Part shown: positions 10,106-64,000 of the stretch, one piece after another
How the letters are laid out: each line of letters starts with the position of its first letter
Position numbering within the stretch: the stretch's first letter is position 1
Source: Deltaproteobacteria bacterium RIFOXYD12_FULL_56_24
GTDB lineage: Bacteria; Desulfobacterota; Desulfobulbia; Desulfobulbales; Desulfurivibrionaceae
DNA: 64,000 nucleotides
Direction: 5' to 3'
Assembly: GCA_001799285.1 (NCBI GenBank)
Contig: MGTD01000013.1
Span: 1 to 64,000 of the forward strand
Program-made: the position numbers and the translations under genes
Notes under the pieces: generated by a model
The model's input: only the letters and a program-made list of their open reading frames with translations
Told to the model about the DNA's origin: nothing
The model's database searches: none

Positions 10106-10118
10106 ATCCAATCTCCTC

Positions 10119-10304
10119 GTAAACGCTCACAGGGCACCGCATCTGCTTTATCGGCACTGCTGCCGATGATAATCGGGCGCTACCGCCGATGATTGTCCGC
10201 ACTTCTGCAGACGATTGACAGACAGACAGTCATCGGGCGGCTCATGTGCAACAGCACACTTCGCCCCCCTCTTCCGCGCATCTGTGGCACACTGTAGTCG
10301 TTTA
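10119..10304. repeat. Degenerate MITE-like palindromic element (186 bp)
   Basis: Its ends are GTAAACGCTCACAG and, inverted, CTGTAGTCGTTTAC. CACAGGGCACCGCATCT follows the left end, as in the other members of the family at 17844 and 58988. The interior has its own imperfect palindromes around CCGATGATAATCGG. No target duplication is visible, so this is probably an old copy. It lies directly upstream of the LOG gene and may carry or separate its promoter. Confidence 0.6.
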
Positions 10305-10387
10305 CAGTTTGTGGGATGCAACGCTGAACTTGGCCACACACCACCCCTTTCAGTAAAGATAGTCTCGCAATAATCTCGGATGCGCCA

Positions 10388-12517
10388 TCAAGAAAAAGCC
10401 GCCAGGGCCGCTTGCGCCGGAGCATGCTCAGGAAAGTACCGCAACACCTTTTCATAAAGTTTCCTGGCCTTGCCGAGCCTGTTTTGCTGCGCGAAGATCC
10501 TGCCCAGCAACATGGCTGCTTCCGCCTGCCCCTGGTCAAGACGGAGGCATTCCGTCAAGGACTGCCTTGCCCCTTCCAGGTCCTGGGCCAGGGCCTGCAC
10601 CTGACCCAGCCGAAACCAGTGGGATGCCTTGCCCCCATCCAACTCAACCGCCTGTCCGCACAGAGCCAGGGCGATATCCTCGCCCTGTTTTTCCAAAGCA
10701 TATAACCGGCCAAGCCTGCTCAACGAACCGGCGTCCCTGGGGTTGCTGCCGACCGCCCGCTGATAGGCGGCAATCGCTGCACCGTTATCCGCCAATGCTT
10801 CACAGGCCCGGCCAAGCCAGCGCGCTACCACCATGGGCTCTCCCCCCTGCTGGGGATTCTTGCGGATCAACTTATCACAGCGCTCCAGAGCCTCACGGGC
10901 CTCGACGTATCTTTCCTGCCGGCAATAGAGCATGCCCAGATGTTGCAGAAGATCGGGATGGTTGCCGTCCACAGCCAGCGCCCTTTCCCAGAGCGCCATT
11001 GCCTCTGCCTCCTGTTGATTTTCAAGGCAGACAAATCCCAAATTGAACAAGGCCATAAAATTCTTTGCTTCGATCTCCAACGCCCTGGTAAAAGAGGCTC
11101 TGGCCGACTTGCGCCTATTAAGCTGGATACAGGCAACCCCCATGCTGTTGAGGATATTCACATTGCCCGGTTCAAGAAGCAGACCCTGCCGGTATTCCGC
11201 CAAGGCCTTAACCAGATCGCCTTCGTTATAATAAACATCCCCGCTGATATTGAGGCTGACCGCATCAAAAACCGCCAGCGAATCAGGGCCGAAAAAGGCT
11301 GCGTGCTGCAAAGCCTTCCGGCAGTTCAGGGGAAGAGTCGATTTCTTGAAATCATGAAAGGGAAAAGCAGCCACCCCCATGGAAAAGGGGCTGCCGCCGA
11401 TAGCCTCCATCTTGCTCCGGAAATCCGCAAGCCAGGCGCGGGCCGCCTCGACGTCGAGCCCGTCCAAAAAAATAAAGGCCTCTCGCTGATTAACGGGGAC
11501 CAACCCCTTCTCCTGCCCGAGCAAGGTCCGGAGCCGCTTGGAAAAATGATTGCTGACCGGTTCCTGATCCATGCGCAGCAAAACCAGGGAGAAAAGATTT
11601 TTGCCGCGATACAGGGCGCGCAGTTTTCTGAGCGTCGACTCCGGAATTTTCCGAAAGGGATGGGACTCTATATCCTTGGCGGTGGCATGGCCGCAAAGAC
11701 TGAAAGGCCCCCGCAGACGGGCTGTGCGCAAGGCCTGCCAGGCCTGCGCCAGAAGTTGTTCCGGGGCGCCGCTCCCCTCTGGGTCGTGGGGCGTCACCGT
11801 GGTGATCCCGAGGTGAGCGGTGACAAAATTTTCCCGCTTGAGCCGCAGGAGAAGGGATTCGCCCAGCTGACGGGCCTGTTCAATGTCCACCCCATACCAG
11901 AGTAGACCGAAGATCCCGGCGCCAAGATGGTGCAGGTGCATCTCCTCTCCGAGCATGGAGGCAAGACAGCTGCCGGCCCGAACAATGTAACGGAGACTCC
12001 TGTCCGCGTCGCGGGTGCGCGGATAAACCTCCAGCAGGGCCAGGGTGGCCGGGGGCGAGGATGGCGACTCGGCCTCCTCCTTGCCAAGGGCTTCAAGCTC
12101 CCCCCGCAGATGAAAGCCGTTCACCAGCCCGGTGGCCGGATCCTGGCAGCTCTGTTTGAGTAGATAAAACTCCCTGGAGATGATATGGCTTTGCTCGTCG
12201 AGCCAGACCGCAGGCATTCCGTAGAGCCGGGATTCGCCGCCCCGGACCACCAGCAGGCCGCAGAGCGTCTCCCCTCCCCAGATGGGCAACAACAGTTCCT
12301 GCCGCTTTGCATCGACCACGGGCAAGCGGCTATCGCGAATCTGCTTAAGACCCAACTTAAACTCTGCGGGCGGCTTGCCTTCCCCTTCGCCCAAAGGCAG
12401 CAGCCGGACGGTCTCGCAGGGGAAATAATCAAAAGCAGTCTTGGTGAACAGGGTGGAAAACCGGCGAAGATCGGCAGGGGTCAGAAGCCCGGCCTCAAAA
12501 AGAAAAGGGATGGTCAT
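10388..12517 (-). CDS. Large TPR protein with degenerate GGDEF-like N-terminal part
   Basis: A 709-residue protein without signal peptide. Residues 1-130 are a variable sensor-like region. About 130-400 contains two stretches with the texture of nucleotidyl-cyclase folds (LEVYPRTRDADRSLRYIVRAG; NLFSLVLLRMDQEP), but I cannot find a proper GG[DE]EF loop, so cyclase activity is unlikely. From about residue 420 onward there are tetratricopeptide repeats (YNEGDLVKALAEYRQGLLLEPGN, RALEIEAKNFMALFNLG, and others), the last ending near FAQQNRLGKARKLYEKVLRYFPEHAPA. The ATG at 12517 overlaps the selA stop as ATGA; a GTG at 12529 is an alternative. Role unknown; TPRs suggest protein-protein scaffolding. 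Confidence 0.7.
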   Translation of the reverse strand: MTIPFLFEAGLLTPADLRRFSTLFTKTAFDYFPCETVRLLPLGEGEGKPPAEFKLGLKQIRDSRLPVVDAKRQELLLPIWGGETLCGLLVVRGGESRLYGMPAVWLDEQSHIISREFYLLKQSCQDPATGLVNGFHLRGELEALGKEEAESPSSPPATLALLEVYPRTRDADRSLRYIVRAGSCLASMLGEEMHLHHLGAGIFGLLWYGVDIEQARQLGESLLLRLKRENFVTAHLGITTVTPHDPEGSGAPEQLLAQAWQALRTARLRGPFSLCGHATAKDIESHPFRKIPESTLRKLRALYRGKNLFSLVLLRMDQEPVSNHFSKRLRTLLGQEKGLVPVNQREAFIFLDGLDVEAARAWLADFRSKMEAIGGSPFSMGVAAFPFHDFKKSTLPLNCRKALQHAAFFGPDSLAVFDAVSLNISGDVYYNEGDLVKALAEYRQGLLLEPGNVNILNSMGVACIQLNRRKSARASFTRALEIEAKNFMALFNLGFVCLENQQEAEAMALWERALAVDGNHPDLLQHLGMLYCRQERYVEAREALERCDKLIRKNPQQGGEPMVVARWLGRACEALADNGAAIAAYQRAVGSNPRDAGSLSRLGRLYALEKQGEDIALALCGQAVELDGGKASHWFRLGQVQALAQDLEGARQSLTECLRLDQGQAEAAMLLGRIFAQQNRLGKARKLYEKVLRYFPEHAPAQAALAAFS

Positions 12518-49795: not shown

Positions 49796-50638
49796 ATGAC
49801 CGCCTCCCGCAAGACCTCTCTGCTCTGCCCCAACTGCCGACGCCTCATCAGCCGGAATGAACCACGCTGCCCCTATTGCGGCATCAGAAATCCCGGCGTC
49901 TGGTGGAAAAACCATGCCTTTCTCCGCCTGTTCCATGACCAGGATTTATTTCTCACCGGCCTAAACACCCTCCTCATCGCCCTCTTTGTCCTCTCGCTGC
50001 TTTTAAATCCTGGCGGCATGAGCATGGGCATGAACCCCTTCGGCTTTCTTTCCCCGGACAACCGGAGCCTCCTGCTGCTCGGGGCGACCGGCACCATGCC
50101 CATCGAGGCCCTGCACCGCTGGTGGTCGCTGGTTTCCGCCAGCTATCTGCACGGCGGCCTGCTCCATCTTATCTTCAACCTCATCGCCCTGCGACAGGTC
50201 GGCCCGCTGGTGATCCAGGAATACGGCCTGGCCCGGATGTTCAGCATCTACACCCTGGGCGGGATCGGCGGTTTTTTCCTTTCCTACCTGGCCGGGGTTC
50301 CTTTTACCATCGGCGCTTCGGCAGCGGTCTGCGCCCTGATCGGCGCGGCTCTGTATTACGGAAAAAGCCGGGGCGGCAGCTACGGCCAACAGGTGTACCA
50401 GCAGATCGGCGGCTGGGCCATAAGCATCTTCGTCTTCGGCCTGCTGGTGCCGGGGATCAACAACTGGGCGCACGGGGGCGGCATGGCAACGGGCATCCTC
50501 TGCGGCCTGCTCCTCGGTTATCAGGAAAACCGCCGCGAAACGCTCGGCCATCGGCTGCTGGGCACGGCCTGCGCGGGCGGAACCATCCTGATCCTGCTCT
50601 GGGGTATGGTAACCTCGGTGATCTACCGCTTTTCCTGA
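49796..50638 (+). CDS. Rhomboid-family intramembrane serine protease with zinc ribbon
   Basis: A 280-residue protein: an N-terminal zinc ribbon (LLCPNCRRLI, EPRCPYCGIRN), then six to seven helices of the rhomboid fold. WWSLVSASYLHGGLLHLIFNLIALRQVG is the L1/helix-2 HxxxN-type region, FTIGASAAVCALIG carries the catalytic Ser (GASA) and NNWAHGGGMATG the catalytic His. It would cut transmembrane segments of unknown substrates. No clear ribosome-binding site precedes the ATG. A MITE fragment follows it by 24 bases. Confidence 0.88.
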   Translation: MTASRKTSLLCPNCRRLISRNEPRCPYCGIRNPGVWWKNHAFLRLFHDQDLFLTGLNTLLIALFVLSLLLNPGGMSMGMNPFGFLSPDNRSLLLLGATGTMPIEALHRWWSLVSASYLHGGLLHLIFNLIALRQVGPLVIQEYGLARMFSIYTLGGIGGFFLSYLAGVPFTIGASAAVCALIGAALYYGKSRGGSYGQQVYQQIGGWAISIFVFGLLVPGINNWAHGGGMATGILCGLLLGYQENRRETLGHRLLGTACAGGTILILLWGMVTSVIYRFS

Positions 50639-50717: not shown

Positions 50718-50864
50718 CTTGTTCGGGCATCGCTTTTTGCCCTCCAATTGTCATTTTGCAAAAGGCTCCAGTAACTACAGACCCCAATGCTTCTCCTTTT
50801 TTCCGAGGGAGAAGCATTGGGGCGAAGGGATGTTTCCAATACTACATTGCCGTGGAAAATACCC

Positions 50865-51476
50865 ATGCCCATTCTGATTGCCGTTCTATTCATCCTTTTT
50901 TTTTCTGTCCCGGTCAGAGCCGATCTGACTCAAGGAGTTGACGCGTTAAACCGGGGCGATGGCAAGGCCGCGCTTCAACATCTTCTTCCTTCGGCAAACA
51001 AAGATAACGATGAAGCTCAGTACTACCTGGGTAGGCTTTACTACTACCCCATCTCCGGCATCCGCCGGGATTACCGGGAATCGGCCAAATGGTTCAGGTT
51101 GGCTGCGGAAAAAGGACATGTCGCCGCCCGCTACAAACTGGGGGGTGCCTACCTGAGCGGCAAGGGGGTCGCTCAGGACGATGGCCGCGCGGTGCACTGG
51201 TGGTTGCTCGCCGCCAGGGAGGGGCACCACGAAGCTCAGAACAACCTGGGGGCGATGTTTGCCAACGGCCGTGGTGTCCCGCAAAGTCTGGTGGCAGCCT
51301 ACGCTCTTCAGCTGGTGGCTGCCAGAAACGGCAACGAGCTGGCCCCGGCCAATCTGACCAAAAAGGAGGCTTTGCTCGGTCCGGACGAAAAACGGGAGGC
51401 CATGGCGCTGTCCGAGCGACTCGGCCAGTCTTCCAGCTTTGATGCGGCGCTGGCTCCTTATCTGGTCATGCGTTGA
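50865..51476 (+). CDS. Exported Sel1-repeat protein
   Basis: A 203-residue protein with signal peptide (PILIAVLFILFFSVPVRA) and three to four Sel1-like helix pairs: DEAQYYLGRLYYY, GHVAARYKLGGAYLSGKGVAQDDGRAVHWWLLAAREG, HHEAQNNLGAMFANGRGV. Such solenoids mediate protein contacts in the envelope. The ATG at 50865 is the first that gives a proper signal peptide. The stop codon TGA is overlapped by the target duplication of a MITE, so insertion happened exactly behind the gene. Confidence 0.8.
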   Translation: MPILIAVLFILFFSVPVRADLTQGVDALNRGDGKAALQHLLPSANKDNDEAQYYLGRLYYYPISGIRRDYRESAKWFRLAAEKGHVAARYKLGGAYLSGKGVAQDDGRAVHWWLLAAREGHHEAQNNLGAMFANGRGVPQSLVAAYALQLVAARNGNELAPANLTKKEALLGPDEKREAMALSERLGQSSSFDAALAPYLVMR

Positions 51477-52557: not shown

Positions 52558-54219
52558 GTGTTTAAACGATTCATGCCCACTGCCCCGGTGGTTTGTTCGC
52601 TGGCATTCGTGCTTTTTTCCTGCAACATGGCCATGGCCGACAATGATGGTTTTTTCTCCGACGGGGTCACCTCAAGCGATGAGCGTGCATCCGACAAGCG
52701 AGCGCAGGAAAGTAAAACCACTGCGGCAAGGGTTGCCTCCGGCCCTAAAACGCCGGCAGTGAAAACCATCACCAATTTTACCCAGGCGCTGCGTTGCATG
52801 GATGAGCTTTTCCTCGCCAATGGCAAGCAGGGCATTGTCATCACTTCATCCGGAATCCCCGATGCTACCGGTAAGGCCAAGGCCGGCGACAAGGAAATGA
52901 TGATCTCGGCCATTTCCAAAATGACCATGAAAAGTAATGCTTTCGAGTTCATCGATCTGACCCAGGGCGCATCCGGCGAAGGGGATCTGGCTTTGCTTTT
53001 TGAAATGAAGGGGATGGGCAGCACCAAGGTCCCCGATTATTACATCCGCGGCGCGGTAACCCAACTTGATGACAATGCGGTCCGGGAAAGCAAGGGCGTC
53101 GGCATCGCCTTTTCCTTTCTCGATCTGGGTTATTCCAAGGATCAGGCCTTCGATATGATTACCATGGACATGAGCATCGGCGACGCTGCCACCCGTAAGA
53201 TCATGCCCGAGACCAGTACATCCAACACCATGGTCATCACCAAGGGTGGTCGCTCGGGTGAAGCCGGCGGCAAGATCAGCAAGATGGGCCTTAGCTTTAA
53301 CAAGGATCTCAGTCGTAGCGAAGGGGTGGGCGCCGCCTACCGGACCCTCATCGAACTGGGCCTGATCGAGGCGCTGGGCAAGTTTACCCGGGTACCATAT
53401 TGGCGGTGCCTTGATATCGATTCCACCAACCCCGATCTCATCGATCAGGTGCGGGAGTGGTATGATGTGGCCAACGACAGGGAACGTATTCTTTTCGTTC
53501 AGCAAAAGCTGGCCGGGATGCGTCGCTACAAAGGTCCGTTGGACGGGGCGATAAATGCCGATCTTAAAAATGCCATTGCGGAGTACCAGGCTCAGGTCGG
53601 CCTCATTGCCGACGGGCGGTTGAACTTCGACCTTTATTTCAGCCTGAAGGACGATACGCAGAATCAGCTTGCGGCCTTGCCGATTGTGCCGCCCAAGCAG
53701 ATGGTCGTCTTACCCCGGCCACCCGCGCCTGCTCCTGCAGCCTCGCTCCAGCAGGGCCAAACGGTCACTGATCCCCAACAGCCCTCCGTCACTCATAAGG
53801 CGGCGTTTCGGATTAATCTTGCCAGCGACAGAGGCAGCAACCCCACCTACAAAGTGGGGGAGTCTCTGAACATGACCATGTCGCTGAACTCGTTGGGTTT
53901 CACTTCATGCTACTACGAGGACGTTGTTCACAATGTGGCCAGGATTTTCCCCAATCAGTTTCACCGCGATTCGATGCTCAAGGGGAATGTTCAGGTCCCC
54001 TTGCCGACCGGCGGTTTCAAGATCAGGTTTGACCAGCCGGGGCGTGAAAGGATAGCCTGTATGGGGTCTGACAAGGAACTGCTGGTTCCCACCTCCCTGG
54101 CCGGCGCCAGAGACCTCGTGCCGCTGGCGGTGAAATCTCTGGAGGAACTTACCAGTCAGTTCAAACGTCTGAATCCTGAGATGAGTACCAGTATGGTGGA
54201 GATCACCGTACAGAAATAG
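52558..54219 (+). CDS. CsgG/HfaB-like outer-membrane export lipoprotein with peptidoglycan-binding and DUF4384-like domains
   Basis: A 553-residue exported protein that I place in the CsgG/HfaB family of curli-type export channels. VLFSC at residues 18-22 could be a lipobox. LRCMDELFLANG, ITSSGIPDATGKAKAGDKEMMISAISKMT, DYYIRGAVTQLDD, GVGIAFSFLDLGYSKDQAFDMITMDMSIGDAATRKI and GVGAAYRTLIELGLIEALGKFTRVPYWRCL (about residues 70-285) follow the order of HfaB/CsgG. Two parts are added: a peptidoglycan-binding-like helix set (ILFVQQKLAGMRRYKGPLDG, about 308-364) and, after a Pro-rich linker, a DUF4384-like beta domain (412-508). Start GTG at 52558 with AAGGAGG. It leads a set of small exported repeat proteins, which fits export of fibre subunits. 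Confidence 0.75.
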   Translation: MFKRFMPTAPVVCSLAFVLFSCNMAMADNDGFFSDGVTSSDERASDKRAQESKTTAARVASGPKTPAVKTITNFTQALRCMDELFLANGKQGIVITSSGIPDATGKAKAGDKEMMISAISKMTMKSNAFEFIDLTQGASGEGDLALLFEMKGMGSTKVPDYYIRGAVTQLDDNAVRESKGVGIAFSFLDLGYSKDQAFDMITMDMSIGDAATRKIMPETSTSNTMVITKGGRSGEAGGKISKMGLSFNKDLSRSEGVGAAYRTLIELGLIEALGKFTRVPYWRCLDIDSTNPDLIDQVREWYDVANDRERILFVQQKLAGMRRYKGPLDGAINADLKNAIAEYQAQVGLIADGRLNFDLYFSLKDDTQNQLAALPIVPPKQMVVLPRPPAPAPAASLQQGQTVTDPQQPSVTHKAAFRINLASDRGSNPTYKVGESLNMTMSLNSLGFTSCYYEDVVHNVARIFPNQFHRDSMLKGNVQVPLPTGGFKIRFDQPGRERIACMGSDKELLVPTSLAGARDLVPLAVKSLEELTSQFKRLNPEMSTSMVEITVQK

Positions 54220-54261
54220 CAGGGTGTTGAAAGGATGTAACCGCTTACAGGGAGAGCCGCA

Positions 54262-54864
54262 ATGCGTTTTGTAAAAACCTTTACGATGGCGGTGGTTACT
54301 CTTCTTTTTTGCGCACGGACGGGGATAGGCGGAGAGATCATATTGTCTCCGCCGCTTGACAAGAACAGGCCGGCCAGGACTGATAACAGTGAGAAAGCAC
54401 GAAGTTATCTGAATGAAGAAACGTCCGAGACCAGCCCCCCCTCAATCGTGATCATTCCCGATTGGGAAGATGAAGGAATACTCAGCCCTCGGGTGCTGGA
54501 AATGCCGCAGGATAATCGCTCGAAGGCGCGGGATTATATCCGAAATCGAGATCCTCGCCAGGGCTTGCCGACCATCATTATTCCCCCCGCCGGTTCCAGG
54601 ACGAATCCAACCAGGGATGCGGCGGAAAAACAGCGTAACAAGGCGAGAAGTTATCTTGATGGCTGGGATGGAGCCGCGGGCATCAAGCCGGGAACTTCCA
54701 TTCAGATTGGAACAACCGTGGGTGTGGCAGGGAAGGATGGGGTCATTGTTTTCGACTGCAGCACCATCAGCAATGTGGCGGGCCGGATTGGGGACGATCT
54801 GCAATCCGGCAATGAATTCATCGTGGTGATTAACAGGAAAAATTACCGGGCTCGCTGCCGCTGA
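54262..54864 (+). CDS. Exported protein of unknown function with KARxYL repeats
   Basis: A 200-residue protein with signal peptide (FTMAVVTLLFCARTGIGG). A short motif occurs three times in the middle: SEKARSYLNEE, RSKARDYIRNRD and RNKARSYLDGW, each followed by a hydrophobic strand such as PSIVIIPDWE or PTIIIPPAG. A C-terminal domain (SIQIGTTVGVAGKDGVIVFDCSTISNVAGRI ... YRARCR) has two cysteines. No family recognised. It is 42 bases behind the CsgG-like gene and likely part of the same unit. GTAACCGCTTAC, another lone element tip, is in its leader. Confidence 0.72.
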   Translation: MRFVKTFTMAVVTLLFCARTGIGGEIILSPPLDKNRPARTDNSEKARSYLNEETSETSPPSIVIIPDWEDEGILSPRVLEMPQDNRSKARDYIRNRDPRQGLPTIIIPPAGSRTNPTRDAAEKQRNKARSYLDGWDGAAGIKPGTSIQIGTTVGVAGKDGVIVFDCSTISNVAGRIGDDLQSGNEFIVVINRKNYRARCR

Positions 54865-54877
54865 CTCTCAAGGCGCT

Positions 54878-55032
54878 GTAACCGTTCAGCAGCACCACAT
54901 CTTCGGACGATCGGCCCGGCTTACGTACACGAGGTACGCAGCAACGGTCCCCTTGTCCAAATCTGCACCACTGCTGAACGGTTACAGTTCGGCGGTTTTG
55001 GTACTTTGGTGACCGCCCCGATGAACGGCGAC
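54878..55032. mobile_element. MITE copy (155 bp) with 7/8 target duplication
   Basis: GTAACCGTTCAGCAG at the left end and CTGCTGAACGGTTAC in the interior, then a 46-base tail with a decayed end (GGCGAC). Flanks AAGGCGCT (54870-54877) and AAGGCGCG (55033-55040). About 95% identical by eye to 51484-51638. Confidence 0.82.
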
Positions 55033-55070
55033 AAGGCGCGGATGTGGGGACAAACGAAAGGGGAAAGGCC

Positions 55071-55391
55071 ATGAAAAGGATGGTATTGTTGCTTGCCGTG
55101 GTCATGCTGGCGGGGACAGCGGTTACGTTCGCCCAAGTACAGGTCGAGACCGGCGCTTACAGGGTGCGAGTCAACCCGGGCGGAGCCGTGGAGGTCAATG
55201 CCCTTCCGGGGAGTCAACCCGCAATTGGCAAAGATGTGCAAGTGGCCGGGGTCACCGTCATTAACGGCAATCTCTTTATCGATGGTGAAAAAGTACCAAA
55301 GGGCAGAACGAGCTACACGTCGAAGAAAACCGGAAAAAGCTACAAAGTCGATTGGGGTCGGGACGGGAATGTCAGCGTGGCGGAGCAGTGA
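55071..55391 (+). CDS. Small exported protein of unknown function
   Basis: A 106-residue protein with signal peptide (MVLLLAVVMLAGTAVTFA). The mature part is short beta-rich: VQVETGAYRVRVNPGGAVEVNAL, VTVINGNLFIDGEKVPKGRTSY and a Lys-rich end (SKKTGKSYKVDWGRDG). No family recognised. The ATG at 55071 has GGGGAAAGG before it. It is 24 bases upstream of the metallopeptidase gene, hence probably in one transcript. A surface or fibre accessory role is inferred only from context. Confidence 0.72.
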   Translation: MKRMVLLLAVVMLAGTAVTFAQVQVETGAYRVRVNPGGAVEVNALPGSQPAIGKDVQVAGVTVINGNLFIDGEKVPKGRTSYTSKKTGKSYKVDWGRDGNVSVAEQ

Positions 55392-55415
55392 ATTAATCGA
55401 AAGGAGATAACGGCT

Positions 55416-56318
55416 ATGACTCTGCGGCTCAATATCATTTGCGGCAAGGCGATGCTCTTGGCCTGTGGCGCCATCCTGACGCTCTTTCTAATGTCTCCGC
55501 AGTCAGCCTGGAGTACCGGCGCGGTGCCCGGCGATTTCCAGACCATTCTCAACCATCGCAGCAACGCCCTGACGATTTGGAACTATACCGGCAATCAAAA
55601 CATCTATGTCTTTGATTTCCCAGGGCTCATTCTCCAAGGGCGAACATTCAACCGGCTTACCCAGATGACCGAGCAGGTCCAGACCGGCGCAGGGTATCCC
55701 CGCGTGCTCAGCAACGAGGAGCTACTAGCTCACATGGAAGCCATCCGCCGGACCCAAGCCAACTTTGCCTTCGGTCATGACGCGCTGGTCTCCGAACTGG
55801 TGCAGTTTTACAACCTTGCCGACCGGGACAAGATCGAACTTTTCCCCGAAGAACTGGTCTTGCGGGATTTTCTTCTGGGAAATGGCCTCATCAAAACCTG
55901 GCGCGGCTTTTACCAGGCATTGCAGCCGGACGTGATCATCCTGTCAATCCCTCAGGTCCAGGATAAAAAAGCCGATGAGCCTCGGGTTTCCGAACTTGCC
56001 CGCGAGGCGATCTTTACCCATGAAATTTCCCATGGCGAATACTATACTAATCCCCACTTCGCTAACTATTGCCGTGCGTTTTGGAGTCAGACTCTCACCG
56101 ACGCCCAGCGCCAGCTTTTCTTGAAGTTCCTTGCCAACTATAACTACGCTGTCGACCAGGGCGAAATGATTGTCAATGAGATGCAGGCGTATCTCATGTT
56201 TACCCCGGACCCTCTCTCCTTTAGTGCGAGTCGACTTGGGGTAACGGAAGAGGAACTTGAGAAGATGCGGGAAGCCTTCCGCAAAGGCAAACCTCCAACC
56301 AGGCTCCCTTTGCGCTGA
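55416..56318 (+). CDS. Exported zinc metallopeptidase-like protein (HEISH)
   Basis: A 300-residue exported protein (signal peptide around MLLACGAILTLFLMSPQSAWS). FTHEISHGEYY at residues 201-210 is an HExxH zinc site. NEMQAYLMF at 254-262 gives a likely third ligand (Glu) 49 residues after the second His, the gluzincin arrangement. The flanking regions (LALQPDVIILSIPQ; VLSNEELLAHMEAIRRTQANFAFG) match no family I know. It may process or release proteins of the surface island, such as the repeat subunits or the TpsA adhesin. AAAGGAGATAACGGCT precedes the ATG. Confidence 0.75.
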   Translation: MTLRLNIICGKAMLLACGAILTLFLMSPQSAWSTGAVPGDFQTILNHRSNALTIWNYTGNQNIYVFDFPGLILQGRTFNRLTQMTEQVQTGAGYPRVLSNEELLAHMEAIRRTQANFAFGHDALVSELVQFYNLADRDKIELFPEELVLRDFLLGNGLIKTWRGFYQALQPDVIILSIPQVQDKKADEPRVSELAREAIFTHEISHGEYYTNPHFANYCRAFWSQTLTDAQRQLFLKFLANYNYAVDQGEMIVNEMQAYLMFTPDPLSFSASRLGVTEEELEKMREAFRKGKPPTRLPLR

Positions 56319-56345
56319 TTTACACCAGAATCTGGAGGAAAAAAT

Positions 56346-56654
56346 ATGAAGAAAAAATGGGCGATCTTTTGTTTATGTTTGGGCGCCTGCATGGCAGCCA
56401 GTGGCAGTGACGCACTGGCCCAGGTGAGTCAACGGACGAAAATTCAGGGCAACACCGAAATCAATGTGTCGACAGACAACACAACCGCTGTCGCTATTGG
56501 TCAAAACAATGTTGCGAAGAACAGAATCGGGGTGGTACAAGGTGACAAGAAAGGTAACACCAAAATTAACGTCAGCGCCGGCAACGTGACAACGGTGGTG
56601 AGCGGACGTAACAAAAAAGCGGTAACCAACATAGGAGGGGTCGTTAATGAATAG
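56346..56654 (+). CDS. Curlin-style repeat protein 1
   Basis: A 102-residue exported protein: signal peptide (IFCLCLGACMAASGSDALA), then two repeat units of 36 residues. Unit one has TKIQGNTEINVS and TTAVAIGQNNVAKNRIGVV; unit two, more diverged, has KKGNTKINVS and TTVVSGRNKKAVTNIGGVV. The pattern of GNT turns between short strands rich in Asn, Thr and Val is shared with the proteins at 57798 and 58277. By analogy with CsgA it may be a fibre subunit exported through the CsgG-like protein. It overlaps the next gene by eight bases. Confidence 0.75.
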   Translation: MKKKWAIFCLCLGACMAASGSDALAQVSQRTKIQGNTEINVSTDNTTAVAIGQNNVAKNRIGVVQGDKKGNTKINVSAGNVTTVVSGRNKKAVTNIGGVVNE

Positions 56655-56958
56655 GCATCCCGTACTCGTGGTCCTGGTCGGATCTTTCCTGTTGCTCTTC
56701 GTATCCCAAAACGCCGATGCCGTGCAGGGCCTTGATGCCCATGGCCAGAGCAAGGTCAGCAAGGCCATGGCGAGAAAGTGGTCGCAATCGGATCAGGGTA
56801 AGGACGGCTACAGCAATCAGCTCAACAAAAGCGTAGTCAACATCGGCAACAAAAAGTCCGGCGACTGCAACCTCAACGTGGGCACGGTACAGCCTGGGCA
56901 GAAAGCGCCAAAAGAAATCGTGGTTACCACAAAGGAAGTAATCAATGTCTGCAAGTGA
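56647..56958 (+). CDS. Small exported protein with two cysteines, possible fibre accessory protein
   Basis: A 103-residue protein with signal peptide (PVLVVLVGSFLLLFVSQNADA). The mature part has a basic helix (SKVSKAMARKWSQSDQG), then LNKSVVNIGNKKSGDCNLNVGTV and KEIVVTTKEVINVCK. The two Cys could form a disulfide. The NIGN/NVGT strands recall the neighbouring repeat proteins but there is no full repeat. The start overlaps the end of repeat protein 1, so they are coupled. Possibly a nucleator or chaperone of the fibre system; that is inference. Confidence 0.7.
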   Translation: MNRHPVLVVLVGSFLLLFVSQNADAVQGLDAHGQSKVSKAMARKWSQSDQGKDGYSNQLNKSVVNIGNKKSGDCNLNVGTVQPGQKAPKEIVVTTKEVINVCK

Positions 56959-56970
56959 GGATGAAGCATT

Positions 56971-57654
56971 ATGAAAAAAAACAATCTTAGCAGCTTTTTT
57001 GCCCGGAAAATCGTTGGCTTTGCTACCTGTACTGTTTTGTTGACGACTATCGGGTCTACCGTCTTTGCCGCTTCTGCCGATGATGCCAAGTTGAGAGAGC
57101 TGGAGCAGGCGATAAAGGTCGCCCCGAAGGCTGAAAATCCGGTCAAAAAGCCCCGAACCAGGGCCATCGTTTTTGACACTGAACCGACCGCCGCCCAACC
57201 GGCGGAAAAACTGCAGGCCCAGCCCCCGGTTAACGCCGTAGCTCAGACAGGTGTTCAGGAAAAGGATAAGGGGGGGAGGCAGCCTGTCGACTGCAGCAAA
57301 TTACCTGCGGACCCAAAGGTAACGGCCGTTGACTTTGTCATCAGCTTCAAGGTTAACAGCTCGGAAATAGCCCCATCATCCGAGGCTCTTCTCGTACAGA
57401 TCGCCAAGGTGCTTAACCTTTCTCCGGAACGGTGCGTCCTGGTGGAGGGGCACACCGATGCCTCGGGCAGTTACGAAAAAAATCTGCTTCTTTCTGAAAA
57501 CCGGGCAAATTCAGTGGTAAAATTCATCAGCGAGAAGGCTGAGGTTGACGGCAGGCGCCTGGTGGCCGTCGGCAAGGGGCCGTCTGAACCCATGAAAAAT
57601 ACCGACCCACGCGACCCCAAAAATCGCCGCGTGGTATTCAAGGTCGTCGAGTGA
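56971..57654 (+). CDS. OmpA-family peptidoglycan-associated protein
   Basis: A 227-residue protein: signal peptide ending near VFAASA (residue 34), a Pro/Ala/Gln linker (residues 50-100) and an OmpA C-terminal domain from about 115: DFVISFKVNSSEIAPSSEALLVQIAKVL, VEGHTDASGSYEKNLLLSENRANSVVKF, GKGPSEPMKNTDPRDPKNRRVVF. The Asp/Arg pair that binds diaminopimelate is present in HTDASG and NRRV. It would anchor the surface machinery to peptidoglycan. It is 12 bases behind the preceding gene. Confidence 0.88.
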   Translation: MKKNNLSSFFARKIVGFATCTVLLTTIGSTVFAASADDAKLRELEQAIKVAPKAENPVKKPRTRAIVFDTEPTAAQPAEKLQAQPPVNAVAQTGVQEKDKGGRQPVDCSKLPADPKVTAVDFVISFKVNSSEIAPSSEALLVQIAKVLNLSPERCVLVEGHTDASGSYEKNLLLSENRANSVVKFISEKAEVDGRRLVAVGKGPSEPMKNTDPRDPKNRRVVFKVVE

Positions 57655-57797
57655 TGACCGGCATCTTCCATTTTAACCCAAACAAAAGGAGGGGCAAGCA
57701 AAGGGAGGGAATGTATCGGTAGTTAGGGTGTTGTTAGATTAGTAACACAAAAAAAGTTTGTATCAAAACAACAACAAAACAAGAAGGAGACAATCCA

Positions 57798-58112
57798 ATG
57801 CGGATCCTCACCATGTTCGTCGCGTTCACCCTCATCGCAGCCCCAGCCCTGGCTCAGCAGGCCCAGCGTTCCAGCAATCCTCAGGGAGTCCAGATCCAGG
57901 GCAACACCGACATCAAGGCAAAACAGGAGAATGTTACCGCCATAGCGGTCGGTGAAGGCAACACCGCCAAAAACACCGCCGGCGCCATCAAGGGCGGCAC
58001 CCAGATCCAGGGCAACACCAACATCAAGGCTTCCCAGAAGAATGCTGCTGCAATTGCGGTAGGTAAAGGCAACAAGGCTGAGAACGCAGCCGGCGTCATC
58101 GGTGGCAATTAA
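57798..58112 (+). CDS. Curlin-style repeat protein 2
   Basis: A 104-residue exported protein: signal peptide (LTMFVAFTLIAAPALA), then two 37-residue units. Each unit reads QIQGNT-x-IKA, about eight residues, then AIAVG-x-GN-x-A-x-N-x-AG-x-I. GNT/GN turns occur every 18-19 residues, giving four strand-turn-strand steps, the kind of periodicity seen in curlin and other beta-solenoid amyloids. The DNA of the repeats is almost identical to the next gene, which points to recent duplication or conversion. GAAGGAGAC precedes the ATG. Confidence 0.8.
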   Translation: MRILTMFVAFTLIAAPALAQQAQRSSNPQGVQIQGNTDIKAKQENVTAIAVGEGNTAKNTAGAIKGGTQIQGNTNIKASQKNAAAIAVGKGNKAENAAGVIGGN

Positions 58113-58276
58113 CATCAGGCATTAGTACCGTAAGCCATTGTCAAAAAATAACATGGCCATTTTAGGCGGCAAGATGGCATAAGGAGCCCTACAGTAGCAA
58201 CATAACTGACCATGCCGTCTCTGAACGGCTCCTAAGTTTTTTTAGCCGATCAACTACTTTTTCAGGAGGATAGATC

Positions 58277-58618
58277 ATGTGGAATAAAGTTTTTTGCGCA
58301 GCGGTATTGACCCTTTTCATGGCTGGAAGTGCATTTGGCCAGGCTTCTCAGGCAGGGCCGCGGGGAGGCATGTACTCGCCGAACGCCCAGGGGGTGCAGA
58401 TCCAGGGCAACACCGACATCAAGGCCAAACAGGAGAATGCCACCGCCATAGCGGTCGGTGAAGGCAACACCGCCAAAAACACCGCCGGCGCCATCAAGGG
58501 CGGCACCCAGATTCAGGGCAACACCAGCATCAAGGCCAAACAGAAGAACGCTGCCGCAATTGCGGTAGGTAAGGGCAACACCGCTGAAAACGCGGCTGGG
58601 GTCATTGGCGGTAAGTAA
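58277..58618 (+). CDS. Curlin-style repeat protein 3
   Basis: A 113-residue exported protein with a different signal peptide (VFCAAVLTLFMAGSAFG) and N-terminal leader (QASQAGPRGGMYSPNAQG) but the same two 37-residue units: QIQGNTDIKA, TAIAVGEGNTAKNTAGAI and QIQGNTSIKA, AAIAVGKGNTAENAAGVI. It is probably a paralogous fibre subunit. CAGGAGGATAGATC precedes the ATG. In the 164-base gap before it, GGAGCC and GGCTCC enclose a loose hairpin followed by a T-run (58180-58242), so this gene may have its own expression level. Confidence 0.8.
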   Translation: MWNKVFCAAVLTLFMAGSAFGQASQAGPRGGMYSPNAQGVQIQGNTDIKAKQENATAIAVGEGNTAKNTAGAIKGGTQIQGNTSIKAKQKNAAAIAVGKGNTAENAAGVIGGK

Positions 58619-58629
58619 TTTTTTTGCTT

Positions 58630-58659
58630 CCTTGTGGAGGAGGCCCCTCCTCCACAAGG
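58630..58659 (+). terminator. Strong hairpin after repeat protein 3
   Basis: CCTTGTGGAGGAGG and CCTCCTCCACAAGG form a 13-14 bp perfect stem with a tiny loop. It is 12 bases after the stop codon. There is no T-run directly behind it. Confidence 0.65.
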
Positions 58660-58675
58660 ATTCGTTCCCTTGCGT

Positions 58676-58738
58676 AAAAAAGGCAGGGACACCCGCGAAA
58701 CAGCCATGGCAGCTTTTCACGGGTGTCCCTGCATTTTT
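58676..58738. terminator. Bidirectional rho-independent terminator
   Basis: GCAGGGACACCCG (58683-58695) and CGGGTGTCCCTGC (58720-58732) pair perfectly. An A-run stands to the left and ATTTTT to the right. It marks the end of the curli-like unit. Confidence 0.85.
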
Positions 58739-59141: not shown

Positions 59142-59267
59142 GTTCCGAGCACATAAATATTGGGGCACTATTAACAAGGAGCGGCTGGTTTTATTATCTG
59201 TACTTGCCTAAAGTTATACTTGACCTTACGCGTTCATCAATTTTTGCATCTGCCAGAGGAAAAAACC

Positions 59268-60887
59268 ATGGTAAAATTCTTAGTGACAGGGATGGTCGTT
59301 ATTGGGCAACTATTTCTGGTTCAGCCTGTTCTGGCGCAAACTCCCCGGTTTGATATCACCGGCTTTAGCGTAGAAGGCAACACCCTGCTCACTGATGCCC
59401 AGATTCAGCAGGCGCTTGCACCATTTGTCGGGCCCGAGCGGGAAATGGCCGATATCAACAAGGCGGCGGAAGCCCTGCGCGTGGCCTATCGTGAAGCCGG
59501 CTATCCGGTGGTGCAGGTATTCCCTCCCGAACAAACAAGCAGCGACAAACAGATTTTGCTTAAGGTTCTGGAAGGCAAGATCAAATCTGTCACGGTTGTC
59601 GGCAATACGGCCTACGATGAGGCCAATATCCGCGCCAGCCTGCCACCCCTGAAGGAAGGGGCCAGCCCGCACGTCAACCGCTTGGAGGCTGCCATTGCTC
59701 TGGCTAATGAAAATTCCGCCAAACAGGTTGGGGTTAATTTTCAGCCGGGAACCCTGCCCGGCGAGCTTGAGGCCAAGGTGAACGTGACTGAAGAGCAGGT
59801 TTCCAAATATTTTGTTACCGCCGACAATACCGGGAGCCGCTCCACCGGTTATCCCCGAGTCGGTCTGGGCTTTCAGCACGCCAACCTGTTTAATCTTGAC
59901 CATGTGTTGACCATGCAATATCTAACCTCGCCTGAGTATGTGGACAAAATTGCTAGCTACAGCATAGGCTACCGCATCCCGTTTTATGACTATGGCATGG
60001 CTCTTGATCTGTTGGGGGCCTATTCCGACACGGAGGTGGTTAATACCTCGACCCCGGCAGGGCAGATGAATTTTACCGGCAAGGGTGCCATGCTGGCAGC
60101 CCGCCTCAACCAGGCTCTGGCAAGCATTGGGGATATTCGCCATAAGCTTATTTATGGCATTGAATACAAGGATTTCAGTAACGACGGCACCATTAACGGC
60201 TCAGCCCCGGGCGGAACCTGGGGTTCGGTCAGTTCGCAACCGCTCAGCCTCTCATATGCCGCCCAGGTAGCCCGCCCCACCTTTCAGACCAGCGGCAGTG
60301 TCGGTTTTTTTGTCAATCTGCCGGGGGGCCATAGCGGTAGTGACTCCGACTATACCGCTGCCCGTAACGGTTCAGAGCCGGAGTGGAACCTCTGGCGCCT
60401 GAATGGCTCCGTAGGTGTGCCCCTGCCGCAAGACTGGCAGACCAGGATGACGGTCAGCGCCCAGATCACCGAGGATATACTCATCCCAGGTGAACAATTT
60501 GGCGCCGGCGGCGCCACCTCGGTGCGGGGCTACAACGAGCGGGTAACCTCGGGGGATGAGGGCATTACCGCGAATTTTGAAATCTACACCCCGGAACTAA
60601 GCCAGTATTTGTTCTTGCCTGGCTCCCAGTTGCGCGCCCTGGCCTTTTGGGATCTTGGCGTAGTTGCCAAAAATGGCGACCTGCTGGCCAACGAAAGACG
60701 AAGCCAGAACCTCGCCAGTCTCGGGGTTGGCCTGCGCTTCAACTATATGAAAAACCTCAACGCGAAGTTTGATCTGGGCTGGGCCCAGCAACATATCGAA
60801 TCCTCCGATTCACCGCCCAAGAATCTTGGCGAAAGAAATGACGTGCGGGCCCATTTTTCCCTATCCTACGTTTTCAATCCTTTTTAG
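59268..60887 (+). CDS. Two-partner secretion transporter TpsB (FhaC/ShlB family)
   Basis: A 539-residue outer-membrane Omp85-type transporter. The signal peptide ends near VLAQ (residue 25). POTRA 1 opens with FDITGFSVEGNTLLTDAQIQQAL and POTRA 2 with KIKSVTVVGNTAYDEANIRASLPPL. A 16-strand barrel follows with the conserved L6 motif VRGYNE (in GATSVRGYNERVTSGDEG) and a C-terminal Phe. It threads the TpsA partner across the outer membrane. The ATG at 59268 gives the signal peptide; AGAGGAAA is upstream. tpsA starts 13 bases after its stop. Confidence 0.92.
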   Translation: MVKFLVTGMVVIGQLFLVQPVLAQTPRFDITGFSVEGNTLLTDAQIQQALAPFVGPEREMADINKAAEALRVAYREAGYPVVQVFPPEQTSSDKQILLKVLEGKIKSVTVVGNTAYDEANIRASLPPLKEGASPHVNRLEAAIALANENSAKQVGVNFQPGTLPGELEAKVNVTEEQVSKYFVTADNTGSRSTGYPRVGLGFQHANLFNLDHVLTMQYLTSPEYVDKIASYSIGYRIPFYDYGMALDLLGAYSDTEVVNTSTPAGQMNFTGKGAMLAARLNQALASIGDIRHKLIYGIEYKDFSNDGTINGSAPGGTWGSVSSQPLSLSYAAQVARPTFQTSGSVGFFVNLPGGHSGSDSDYTAARNGSEPEWNLWRLNGSVGVPLPQDWQTRMTVSAQITEDILIPGEQFGAGGATSVRGYNERVTSGDEGITANFEIYTPELSQYLFLPGSQLRALAFWDLGVVAKNGDLLANERRSQNLASLGVGLRFNYMKNLNAKFDLGWAQQHIESSDSPPKNLGERNDVRAHFSLSYVFNPF

Positions 60888-60900
60888 GAGATGCGCTGAT

Positions 60901-63900
60901 ATGACACCTCACAAGAATCGTATCTCTCAGGTCGTCTTCAGGTCAATTGTTATCGGGCTTGCCCTCGGCTTTGCCCCGACCGTGCATGCCAACCCCATTG
61001 CCCCCGCTGTGGTAAGCGGCTCAGCCACCATTGCCACCTCCGGCAACACCATGACCGTAACCAATACGCCCGGTGCCATCATCAACTGGCAGCAGTTCAA
61101 CATCGGCCAAAGCGAGATCCTCAAGTTTATCCAGCAATCCGCCCAGTCCAGCGTGCTTAACCGGGTGATCAGCCAAAATCCCAGCCAGATCCTTGGCACC
61201 CTGCAATCCAATGGCCGGGTATTTTTGATCAACCCCAGCGGGGTGATGTTCGGCCAGGGCTCCATCATCAACGTCAACGGTCTGGTCGCTTCCACCCTTA
61301 ACATCAGTGATAGCGATTTTCTGCTCAACCGTTTCAATTTTATCGGCAGCAACAGCGCCTCCGTAATCAACAAAGGTGAAATCACCACCCCGCTTGGCGG
61401 CAGCGTCTATCTGATCGGCAACAGCGTCAGCAACGAAGGGGTGATCACCTCGCCCAAGGGTGAGGTGATCCTCGCGGCAGGCAACAGCGTTAGCCTGCTT
61501 GATACCGGCACCCCGCATGTTACGGTTACCATCAACGCCCCGGACAACCAGACGGTCAACCTTGGCCAGATCGTGGCCGAAGGCGGCAAGGTTAATATCT
61601 ACGGCGCCCTGCTCAACCAGCAGGGCCTGATCAGTGCTGACAGCGCCAGCCTGGATGCCCAGGGTAATATCGTGCTCAAGGCCAGCCAGTCTCTTACCCT
61701 GGGGCAAGGCAGCGTAACCACGGCCAACGGCCCGCAGGGCGGCACGATCACCGCGCAGGCAAGCGCGGGCAAGACCACCGTCTCGGGCCGGGTGGAGGCC
61801 ACGGGCACTGGCAGCGGTGGCGGCATCAGCCTGCTTGGCAACGAGGTCACCCTGACCGACACGGCGCGAATCGATGCCTCGGGCAGCACCGGCGGCGGCA
61901 CGGTGCTGGTGGGCGGCGATTTTCAGGGCAAGAACGCGGCGGTGCAGAATGCGCAGATTACCTATCTGGCACAGGGGGCATCCATCAAGGCTGATGCTGT
62001 AAACAGTGGCGAGGGCGGCAAGGTTATCGTTTGGGCCGATGAGGCCACCGGCGCTTTTGGCAATATCTCGGCCAAAGGAGGTGCCTTTGGCGGGAACGGC
62101 GGGTTCGTCGAGGTTTCCGGCAAGGAGTATCTGGAATTTGATGCCCGGGTTGACACCAGCGCCCCGTTTGGCAATGCCGGCACCCTGTTACTTGATCCGT
62201 CCAATATTACTATTATCAGCGGCAGCGCTGATCCTACCTCAGGTAGTTTTTCGAATGGCACCTTCTATGGCGATACAAGCGGCACCTCCACGATTACCTG
62301 GGGCAACATCGAAACCCAGCTCGCCAGCAACAACGTGACAATTCAAACTGGCTCCTCCTCCGATGGTGGAGCTGGCGATATCAACGTTTCTGGTTCTCCC
62401 AGCGCAGCCAGTCTGACCATCAGCCACACCGCACCCTGGGATACCTGGGACAGTACCTATACTAATACACTTTACAGCAGCAGCAACAACCTGTCCCTGC
62501 TGGCTGAAAATGCAGTGAATATCTATGCTCCGTTTGGCAACGCTGGTAGCGGGGCGATCACAATCATTGCCGGCTGGAATGGTAACCTTACCACTCCGGA
62601 TCTTGTGACTAACTACACTGAGGGGAAGAACATCAACTTTTTGAGTTCTTATTCATCCCAGAATGGCAATATCATAGCCAATACCGGTGCCCTGACTTTA
62701 AAGGCGGCTGACACCATCCTGTTTATTCCCGGTGCAAATTCACCTTATATGCCAGGGACAAACAGCGCTTCAATTGACATGAACACCGGGGCCTTAACCT
62801 TGGTCGCCAACAAAATATCCCTTGATGCTTCCGGTGCCGCAAGCAACACGAGGGCCTCAATCCAGACCAATGGCGATCAATCTTTTACCATCGGCAGATC
62901 TGGCGGCGAGCTCTATGACGGGCTTTATCTTTTGGCCGCTAACGGAGATAACATCTATGGTGGTCAAGCCCAGATCAGACGTTTTGGCGGCAGTGGCGGG
63001 CAAAGCTTTACCTTTAACAATGGCAGCGACCTGATCCTTACAGGTGGCGCCGGTAATGGCCTTGTCCCTGCCGGCTGGTGGACAGGCAATTGTGCCAGCG
63101 GCGATTGCAGCGGAAACAATGCCGACATTGACAACTATGGCGCTGGCAATCAGACCTTTACCTTTGCCAGTGGTGGCGCCCTCCAGCTTGAGGGTGGTTC
63201 AAGGGGCAACAATAACGGGGCCTGGATTGAGAGTAGCACTGCTCAGGTTATTTCCGGCAATCCGGCCATCACCCTTACCGGCGGCAGTAGCGGCGGAATA
63301 ATGACGGCAGCTGGTTACGTGTTCGAAAATGATGCCGGGTTAGAATCCAATGTCAGCCAGACCATTGATGCCGCCTCCATCACGATGAATGGTGGGGACG
63401 CCGATTACGGTGGCGCTTATCTGGTTGCCCCGGTGCAGACTATTACCGTTACGGGCAATGTCAGCCTGACCGGTGGCGATGCAGAAGTACCCACTGCCTT
63501 TGACCACGACGGAGATCCTGTCTTAACCACCGGGGTGGTCATCGGGGCTGGTGATGAAGACAGCACTTCCCATACCTTAACTCTCACAATCGGCGGCAAC
63601 CTGACCTTGCAAGGCGGGGAAGTCAATAATTATGGCGGCTCTCTTGCCTTGATCGGCGGTTTCCGTATCCCTGCAACCTTAACGATTGACACTACGGGCA
63701 GCATCGACCTGAACGGCGCCGGCGCCGGTCGCGATCAGATCGGTTCCTATGGCGGTTATGGCGGCAGCGTACATCTTCACTCCACCGGCGGTTATATCGA
63801 TATAGGTCAAGGCTTTGTGGGCACTGGAACAACAGGAACTACACACATTGAAGCCCAGACTACGATATCACAAGCAGTCGGAGGTCAGGTTCAAACTGGA

Positions 63901-64000
63901 GGCTTGGTCATGAAAGCCGATGGCACCATTGATGCCCTCGGTAATTTGACTGCAAATGCAAATGATGTGGAACTGCTTAGCACCCATGGCAATCTAAATA
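60901..64000 (+). CDS. Large filamentous-haemagglutinin-like TpsA exoprotein, 3' end beyond the window
   Basis: The reading frame is open from 60901 to the last base (over 1,030 codons) with no stop. A signal peptide (FRSIVIGLALGFAPTVHA) is followed by the TPS secretion domain: ATSGNTMTVTNTPGAIINWQQFNIG, SQNPSQILGTLQSNGRVFLI and NPSGVMFGQGSIINVNG (about residues 45-135). A long beta-helix follows, with repeated strands of the GGxxTLTGGxA type, very rich in Gly, Ser, Thr and Asn. From about residue 420 repeats such as AGTLLLDPSNITII mark the FHA/HMW-type stem. It would be exported by TpsB as an adhesin or surface fibre. AGGAGATG lies before the ATG. Confidence 0.9.
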   Translation, partial: MTPHKNRISQVVFRSIVIGLALGFAPTVHANPIAPAVVSGSATIATSGNTMTVTNTPGAIINWQQFNIGQSEILKFIQQSAQSSVLNRVISQNPSQILGTLQSNGRVFLINPSGVMFGQGSIINVNGLVASTLNISDSDFLLNRFNFIGSNSASVINKGEITTPLGGSVYLIGNSVSNEGVITSPKGEVILAAGNSVSLLDTGTPHVTVTINAPDNQTVNLGQIVAEGGKVNIYGALLNQQGLISADSASLDAQGNIVLKASQSLTLGQGSVTTANGPQGGTITAQASAGKTTVSGRVEATGTGSGGGISLLGNEVTLTDTARIDASGSTGGGTVLVGGDFQGKNAAVQNAQITYLAQGASIKADAVNSGEGGKVIVWADEATGAFGNISAKGGAFGGNGGFVEVSGKEYLEFDARVDTSAPFGNAGTLLLDPSNITIISGSADPTSGSFSNGTFYGDTSGTSTITWGNIETQLASNNVTIQTGSSSDGGAGDINVSGSPSAASLTISHTAPWDTWDSTYTNTLYSSSNNLSLLAENAVNIYAPFGNAGSGAITIIAGWNGNLTTPDLVTNYTEGKNINFLSSYSSQNGNIIANTGALTLKAADTILFIPGANSPYMPGTNSASIDMNTGALTLVANKISLDASGAASNTRASIQTNGDQSFTIGRSGGELYDGLYLLAANGDNIYGGQAQIRRFGGSGGQSFTFNNGSDLILTGGAGNGLVPAGWWTGNCASGDCSGNNADIDNYGAGNQTFTFASGGALQLEGGSRGNNNGAWIESSTAQVISGNPAITLTGGSSGGIMTAAGYVFENDAGLESNVSQTIDAASITMNGGDADYGGAYLVAPVQTITVTGNVSLTGGDAEVPTAFDHDGDPVLTTGVVIGAGDEDSTSHTLTLTIGGNLTLQGGEVNNYGGSLALIGGFRIPATLTIDTTGSIDLNGAGAGRDQIGSYGGYGGSVHLHSTGGYIDIGQGFVGTGTTGTTHIEAQTTISQAVGGQVQTGGLVMKADGTIDALGNLTANANDVELLSTHGNLN

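Follow-up and report, generated by a model that had tools for sequence, protein, structure and literature searches.

Small GNT repeat proteins in a conserved operon with a CsgG/HfaB-like pore as candidate subunits of a functional-amyloid-like fibre system

Introduction

Curli, Fap and Hfa are the closest described counterparts of the locus reported here. In curli, the repeat unit of CsgA is about 23 residues long and is present in 4–62 copies per protein, according to PMC10192328. The FapC fibre is described in PMC12392863 as a Greek-key β-solenoid in which each layer is made of one repeat, mostly of 38–39 residues. HfaA of Caulobacter is described in PMC6707917 as CsgA-like; it forms multimers resistant to sodium dodecyl sulfate (SDS) and heat, and its targeting depends on HfaB. 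Here we analyse a window of 64,000 nucleotides from Deltaproteobacteria bacterium RIFOXYD12_FULL_56_24 (contig MGTD01000013.1, positions 1 to 64,000), in which three small exported proteins carry a repeat unit that we call GNT. Coordinates are positions in this window, proteins are named by their start coordinate, and all features of the block described below lie on the + strand.

GNT is a real, undescribed family of subunits encoded in a conserved, pore-linked operon. We further propose, with a probability of roughly 0.6, that the GNT proteins would serve as subunits of a dedicated functional-amyloid-like extracellular fibre system encoded by the block 52558–58618.

Results

The GNT proteins

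The three open reading frames (ORFs) of the original prediction, which was made from the DNA of the window alone, are all present, each with two units and with an N-terminus that resembles a signal peptide as judged by eye. These are 56346–56654 (102 residues; units at 56436–56546 and 56541–56651), 57798–58112 (104 residues; units at 57888–57998 and 57999–58109) and 58277–58618 (113 residues; units at 58394–58504 and 58505–58615). The units take the form xxIQGNTxIxAxQxNxTAxAVGxGNxAxNxAGxIxGG. They are spaced by 37 residues in 57798 and 58277, and in 56346 the second unit follows 35 residues after the first; the GN turns every 18–19 residues, claimed for all three proteins, are seen in 57798 and 58277. 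The 56346 protein represents a distinct, diverged type (type B, 37% identity), the other two being of type A. These three were the only GNT genes found in the genome of the window.

One scan of 84,980 species, after which accessory genes were sought by tblastn with the window proteins, gave tblastn-confirmed GNT relatives at 40 loci, beyond chance. Type B is a separate orthologous gene in 33 of them. Exactly two units are present in 103 of the 109 GNT-matching ORFs, a set that includes the three window ORFs, two overlapping frames (L053) and three rows from a single gene (L045). The latter, the type B gene of Candidatus Accumulibacter contiguus, seems frame-broken, its pieces matching in three frames (L045:8289-8672). 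The composition of the family is 12.7% Asn, 8.3% Gln and 16% Gly, with 10 aromatics among 5583 residues.

The claim that the family is new was borne out. No Pfam or NCBIfam family claims the GNT unit, and the names returned by these databases for the window proteins and for 57 GNT proteins were all at chance level. When PDB sequences were searched with 58277, a unit profile and a family profile, nothing credible was obtained; neither Rfam nor plasmids gave a match, and no description of the GNT unit or of its cassette, nor of DUF4384 together with CsgG, was found among open-licence PubMed Central texts.

The structure prediction called for by the original prediction gave confident β structure with a 37-residue period. 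The AlphaFold2 model of 58277 was built with 57 aligned relatives and reaches a predicted local distance difference test (pLDDT) score of 88–96 across residues 41–110. Its strands are assigned to residues 41–43, 46–60 and 65–73, and are repeated exactly 37 residues further on, at 78–80, 83–97 and 102–110. Such recurrence of the three-strand pattern speaks for a repeating layer of one 37-residue unit.

The pore protein and the conserved gene set

The first gene of the block (52558–54219) encodes a CsgG/HfaB-like outer-membrane pore protein with C-terminal PG_binding_1 and DUF4384 domains. Its Pfam matches are DUF4384 (E value 2.1e-12), PG_binding_1 (3.7e-6) and, weakly and in the N-terminal region, CsgG (0.022). 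Among 27 relatives of this protein, Pfam CsgG was matched in 12 (best 0.0012) and NCBIfam HfaB in 26 (best 6.8e-9). When the AlphaFold2 model of 52558 was compared to the PDB with Foldseek, ranks 1 to 14 were all CsgG (best E value 3.3e-7, probability 1.00); LPHT ring, FlgT and PelBC were other envelope proteins among the matches. The model contains long strands at 161–185, 188–209 and 221–235, as the CsgG barrel needs, and by prediction the protein has the CsgG fold.

Genes 52558–58618 form an operon-like block. From 52558 to 57654 the successive gaps between genes are 42, 179, 24, 27, −8 and 12 bases, and gaps of 143 and 164 bases then lead to 57798 and 58277. The operon with the CsgG/HfaB-like pore, a connection that the original prediction did not make, is the real unit. 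Over the 40 loci, a CsgG-like gene is present in 32, the HEISH, type B, 56647-like and OmpA genes in 33 each, the 55044-like gene in 30 and the 54262-like gene in 22. Accessory genes are carried by 33 loci. In four (L071, L075, L076 and L077) the pore block is oriented away from the GNT genes; therefore the content of the set is more conserved than its order. A GNT gene without the rest of the set is found at the seven other loci, five of which share a genome with a full cassette, as judged by contig prefix (L047/L053, L054/L057, L055/L052, L056/L061 and L074/L071). This is as expected of extra subunits serving one pore.

The loci come mostly from Betaproteobacteria, together with metagenome-assembled genomes labelled betaproteobacterial or Pseudomonadota; two are alphaproteobacterial (L076 and L078). 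Betaproteobacterial hosts include Accumulibacter, Azonexus, Gallionella, Giesbergeria and Sulfuritalea, and further hosts of the set are Propionivibrio, Giesbergeria anulus, Propionivibrio dicarboxylicus and Rhodocyclus purpureus. High-similarity GNT sequences are present in 2 of 17 genomes of the same genus as the window, and in 2 of 257 genomes of its class at 1e-5. In the pore tree, a group with a support of 100/100 unites the window protein, that of a Desulfobulbaceae genome (L044) and three proteins from Betaproteobacteria (L046, L048 and L066). With midpoint rooting this grouping points to a transfer from Betaproteobacteria.

Comparison with curli, Fap and Hfa

The block resembles curli in that a CsgG-fold pore, as predicted, lies beside small exported Asn/Gln/Gly repeat proteins with predicted β layers, one subunit being diverged. 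It differs in its unit, of 35–37 residues as against the 23 or so given for curlin in PMC10192328, in the PG-binding and DUF4384 domains carried by its pore, and in the curli minimal motif QxGxxN, which none of 100 two-unit proteins contains (36 of them have a looser curlin kernel). The original prediction compared the repeats with curlin; the nearer sequence parallel is FapC. The motif [VIL]A[AVST]GxGNxxxN, picked after both families had been inspected, is found in 52 of the 100 two-unit proteins, compared to a shuffle mean of 0.02, and in all three FapC fragments. Against the GNT profile, the score of the three FapC repeats together was equalled by 4 of 1000 shuffle sets, and that of CsgA by 118.

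Likeness to Fap lies in a similar unit length and this common core motif. The differences are that GNT proteins have two units without long linkers, whereas FapC has three with linkers; that the FapBC repeat (about 39 residues, GNxGxNxaaGxgNqQN) places its GN element elsewhere than the GNT units; and that the GNT block has a CsgG-type pore and, in place of a C39 peptidase (the FapD counterpart; Pfam matched no peptidase family in the block), the HEISH protein. In its motif and profile scores the layer is closer to Fap, and the pore is closer to curli or Hfa; the system, pairing a FapC-type motif with a curli/Hfa-type pore, matches neither curli nor Fap. Among named families, the one nearest to the pore is HfaB, from the Hfa system of Caulobacter (HfaA/B/D). 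The gene set differs from that of the GNT block: the Hfa set is not known to contain HEISH, OmpA and certain other genes of the block. HfaA and HfaD were not matched, by Pfam or NCBIfam, among the block proteins or 57 GNT proteins, although whether NCBIfam holds such models was not checked. A likeness is that HfaA too is described, in PMC6707917, as a small amyloid-like surface protein.

Type B and the accessory proteins

A C-terminal Cys pair is present in 31 of 32 type B proteins, recognised by their NIG tail. The sole exception is 56346 of the window, which may have lost its disulfide. Among 67 type A proteins, none has a Cys after residue 30.

The other members of the block are exported proteins and an OmpA-family protein. 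The product of 54262–54864 is an exported protein of unknown fold with no Pfam match, and that of 55044–55391 a small exported protein with a conserved C-terminal VINGxxFIDGExxPKGxxxYTSKKTGKxY. The exported HEISH protein (55416–56318) has H202, E203, H206, N254 and E255 invariant in all 20 aligned proteins; no Pfam or PDB family was matched. Applying zincin logic to these residues, we take it to be a candidate zincin-like metallopeptidase, an assignment that no family confirms. The gene 56647–56958 overlaps 56346 by 8 bases and encodes a small exported protein with an invariant Cys pair (C74 and C102), and 56971–57654 encodes a protein with an OmpA-family C-terminal domain (Pfam OmpA, 6.9e-19).

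Just 3′ of the last subunit gene, a perfect 15-base inverted repeat with a 2-base loop (58629–58660) is a possible end of the block; it was not among the terminators called by a consensus scan. A second inverted repeat follows at 58677–58738 (24-base arms, 92% complementary). Directly 3′ of the block lies a two-partner secretion (TPS) pair, made of a ShlB/FhaC-type transporter (59265–60887, E value 7.7e-25) and an exoprotein with a TPS domain (60904–64000, 1.3e-27), the second of which runs off the window. Neither protein was matched in the 40 related loci. On the 5′ side are a rhomboid protein (49796–50638) and a Sel1-repeat protein (50787–51476), a relative of the latter being also found upstream of the block in L044.

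Evolution of the type A pair

The original prediction took 57798 and 58277 to be nearly identical in DNA. In the repeat part, 199 of 222 bases are identical, but the identity is uneven, with 107 of 111 bases in unit 1 and 92 of 111 in unit 2. Over the first 132 bases there are 5 mismatches, against 18 over the last 90 (Fisher 1.8e-4, with the breakpoint chosen afterwards). A recent tandem duplication, one of the two origins suggested at that time, was rejected: leaders track position and not genome, since in 19 of 20 loci the leader of the first copy is more like the leader at that position in another species than like that of its neighbour, and the pair is therefore old. Only L065, where the whole gene has been copied in tandem, departs from this. 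The first-copy repeat resembles its neighbour more than it does the best same-position repeat from other species in 7 of the 20 loci, L065 included.

The alternative suggestion of a homogenisation restricted to the repeat fared better, since identity is 48% between leaders and 90% between repeats, and gene conversion is the better account. The pairwise comparison gave a synonymous divergence (dS) of 0.389, a non-synonymous divergence (dN) of 0.043 and a ratio of 0.11. Together, the mismatch skew, the contrast between leader and repeat and the dN/dS ratio argue for gene conversion over unit 1 and strong purifying selection. The pair reads as old paralogs with gene conversion across unit 1, the putative tract linking 57888–57998 with 58394–58504.

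Long-repeat relatives

Long tandem proteins of 35–38-residue units, with 7 to 51 units, were found in 10 of 97 related genomes, not counting that of the window; the longest is in L021. A CsgG-like match to 52558 was present in 22 of the 97, or 18 after dropping four genomes with DUF4384-only or PG-binding-only matches (G042, G044, G053 and G061). Every one of the 12 genomes that carry GNT or long repeats is among these 18 (Fisher 2.6e-11, relatedness ignored). In 8 of the 10 genomes, the long repeat and the pore share a contig and are no more than about 5 kb apart; in G031 and G074 they are on different contigs. Giant repeat genes are located at L021:4649-10237 (− strand), L020:6183-9698 and 9766-10698, L023:9814-11217, and L025:7346-9907 and 9962-10894. 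Their products, from other families of the order, have 8 to 51 NVAVGNxxxAN units, and no Pfam family was found in those scanned. Several of these genes adjoin CsgG-like lipoproteins, an LPP20-like protein and a small LNFGRYQxSSWA protein.

Long repeats and GNT have a common frame, [IV]xG...[NA][VI]A[VI]GxxxxAN, but differ in their accessory genes (LPP20-like), and the long-repeat units are 14–32% identical to the first unit of GNT. Aligned with hhalign, the two profiles gave an E value of 3e-5 and a probability of 73%, compared to 0.1% for the control. With the HMMER composition correction on, the long-repeat profile placed 58277 at an E value of 4.1, below unrelated window ORFs. Shuffles did as well as 58277, 57798 and 56346 in 9, 75 and 693 cases out of 1000, respectively, and with the correction off in 0, 0 and 103. 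These results are mixed; GNT and long repeats are probably related, which is not proven, and 56346 alone lends no support. Against the long-repeat profile, FapC repeats were equalled by 0 of 1000 shuffle sets and CsgA by 4.

The long unit is rare in the phylum, with 4 matches at 1e-10 among 395 genomes, although, by the matches listed, this even sample seems to have included few of the repeat-bearing members of the order described above. In G084 (L080) the pore is present and no repeat was detected by the profiles. Asn-rich exported proteins adjoin this pore, so substrates may exceed the reach of sequence searches. This Asn-rich repeat locus (L080: 7100-8554, 8931-9530 and 9626-10684, all on the − strand) includes a CsgG-like gene and a VWA protein.

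Discussion

If the GNT block encodes a fibre system, all its members would reach the periplasm via their signal peptides. The 52558 protein would form the outer-membrane pore, and its PG-binding domain together with the OmpA protein may fix the machine to the cell wall. The roles of chaperone, gate or tether, filled in curli by CsgE and CsgF, may here fall to 54262, 55044 and 56647; the weakest element of the scheme is that the HEISH protein, should it be a protease, might trim or license subunits. Outside the cell, 57798 and 58277 would fold into 37-residue layers, one β-arch layer per unit. Their Asn/Gln/Thr and Gly turns would be in register, and the layers would stack end to end. Type B 56346, whose relatives have a disulfide-capable C-terminus, is a candidate nucleator or cap that would start or close the stack. 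The likely use of such fibres would be surface attachment and matrix cohesion. This reading draws on the conserved gene set, the predicted β layers and CsgG fold, the co-occurrence of repeats and pore across genomes, the FapC core motif, the composition of the family and the purifying selection on the type A pair.

Several results weigh against this reading. The Foldseek search of the GNT model against 350,542 PDB chains gave 11 matches, none of them significant; the best two were both FapC (E value 1.6, probability 0.03–0.04). With VIA-align, no Z ≥ 2 was obtained among 24 chains, and AlphaFold2 can give any repetitive sequence a solenoid-like order. The model of 52558 has a mean pLDDT of 66.5 and a template modelling (TM) score to CsgG of about 0.4. 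Its NCBIfam HfaB match (2.7e-4) covers residues 59–122 only, with 20 of 300 bits, far under the family cut-off. CsgE, CsgF, curlin and C39 had no Pfam match among 10 block and flank proteins at E values up to 10, nor did curlin among the 57 GNT proteins. Finally, two units per protein is far below the 4–62 given for CsgA in PMC10192328.

The same data allow other readings. The block could be a variant of the Hfa-type holdfast anchor, in which the pore places GNT on the surface as a short, oligomeric, polysaccharide-holding glue and not as long fibres. This would agree with HfaB being, with 26 of 27 relatives matched, the named family that fits the pore best, with the multimers and HfaB-reliant targeting reported for HfaA in PMC6707917, and with two-unit subunits, which suit short stacks. 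However, the window pore matches HfaB over a short segment far under the cut-off, HfaA and HfaD are unmatched in the block, and HEISH, OmpA and other block genes are not known from the Hfa set; we consider this variant unlikely. We find it rather improbable that GNT proteins are stable, non-polymerising β-solenoids of the surface or periplasm, such as YadA-head-like rolls or binding modules, forming no fibre. The confident AlphaFold2 monomer would fit such a role, as would a weak hit of Pfam YadA_head, obtained for 4 of the 57 type A proteins searched (E value 0.049 at best, not above cut-off); but these matches are at chance level, no YadA head is among the 11 PDB matches, and there is no autotransporter anchor. 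Moreover, several near-identical, converted subunit copies per genome suit a polymer, and relatives of up to 51 units suggest that stacking tolerates any length.

That CsgG-like folds also occur in the LPHT ring, FlgT and PelBC leaves some room for a pore that exports other cargo, polysaccharide or lipoprotein, with GNT as co-inherited, passive periplasmic stress proteins. This is made highly improbable by the tight co-occurrence of GNT and pore in most loci, by that of long repeats and pore in a separate set, and by solitary GNT genes that sit in cassette-bearing genomes. The fibre system remains our preferred reading. We suggest more tentatively, and with less than even confidence, that it represents a further Gram-negative amyloid-fibre system beside curli and Fap, with Fap-like layers and a curli/Hfa-type pore, and that the two-unit GNT proteins and the 51-unit giants are the ends of one superfamily.

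The gene set is known for few bacterial functional-amyloid systems, and the GNT cassette is compact, conserved and shared by many bacteria from water and sludge. Some of its hosts are important in sludge granules and in the removal of phosphorus (Accumulibacter, Azonexus and Propionivibrio), and the culturable ones (Giesbergeria anulus, Propionivibrio dicarboxylicus and Rhodocyclus purpureus) make the system testable. If GNT proteins form fibres, they would be very small natural amyloid subunits of two layers, informative on the minimal designed layer, and a Fap-like layer would be paired with a curli-type pore. If the superfamily reading is true, curli and Fap would be bridged, and the minimum natural fibre subunit would be two layers.

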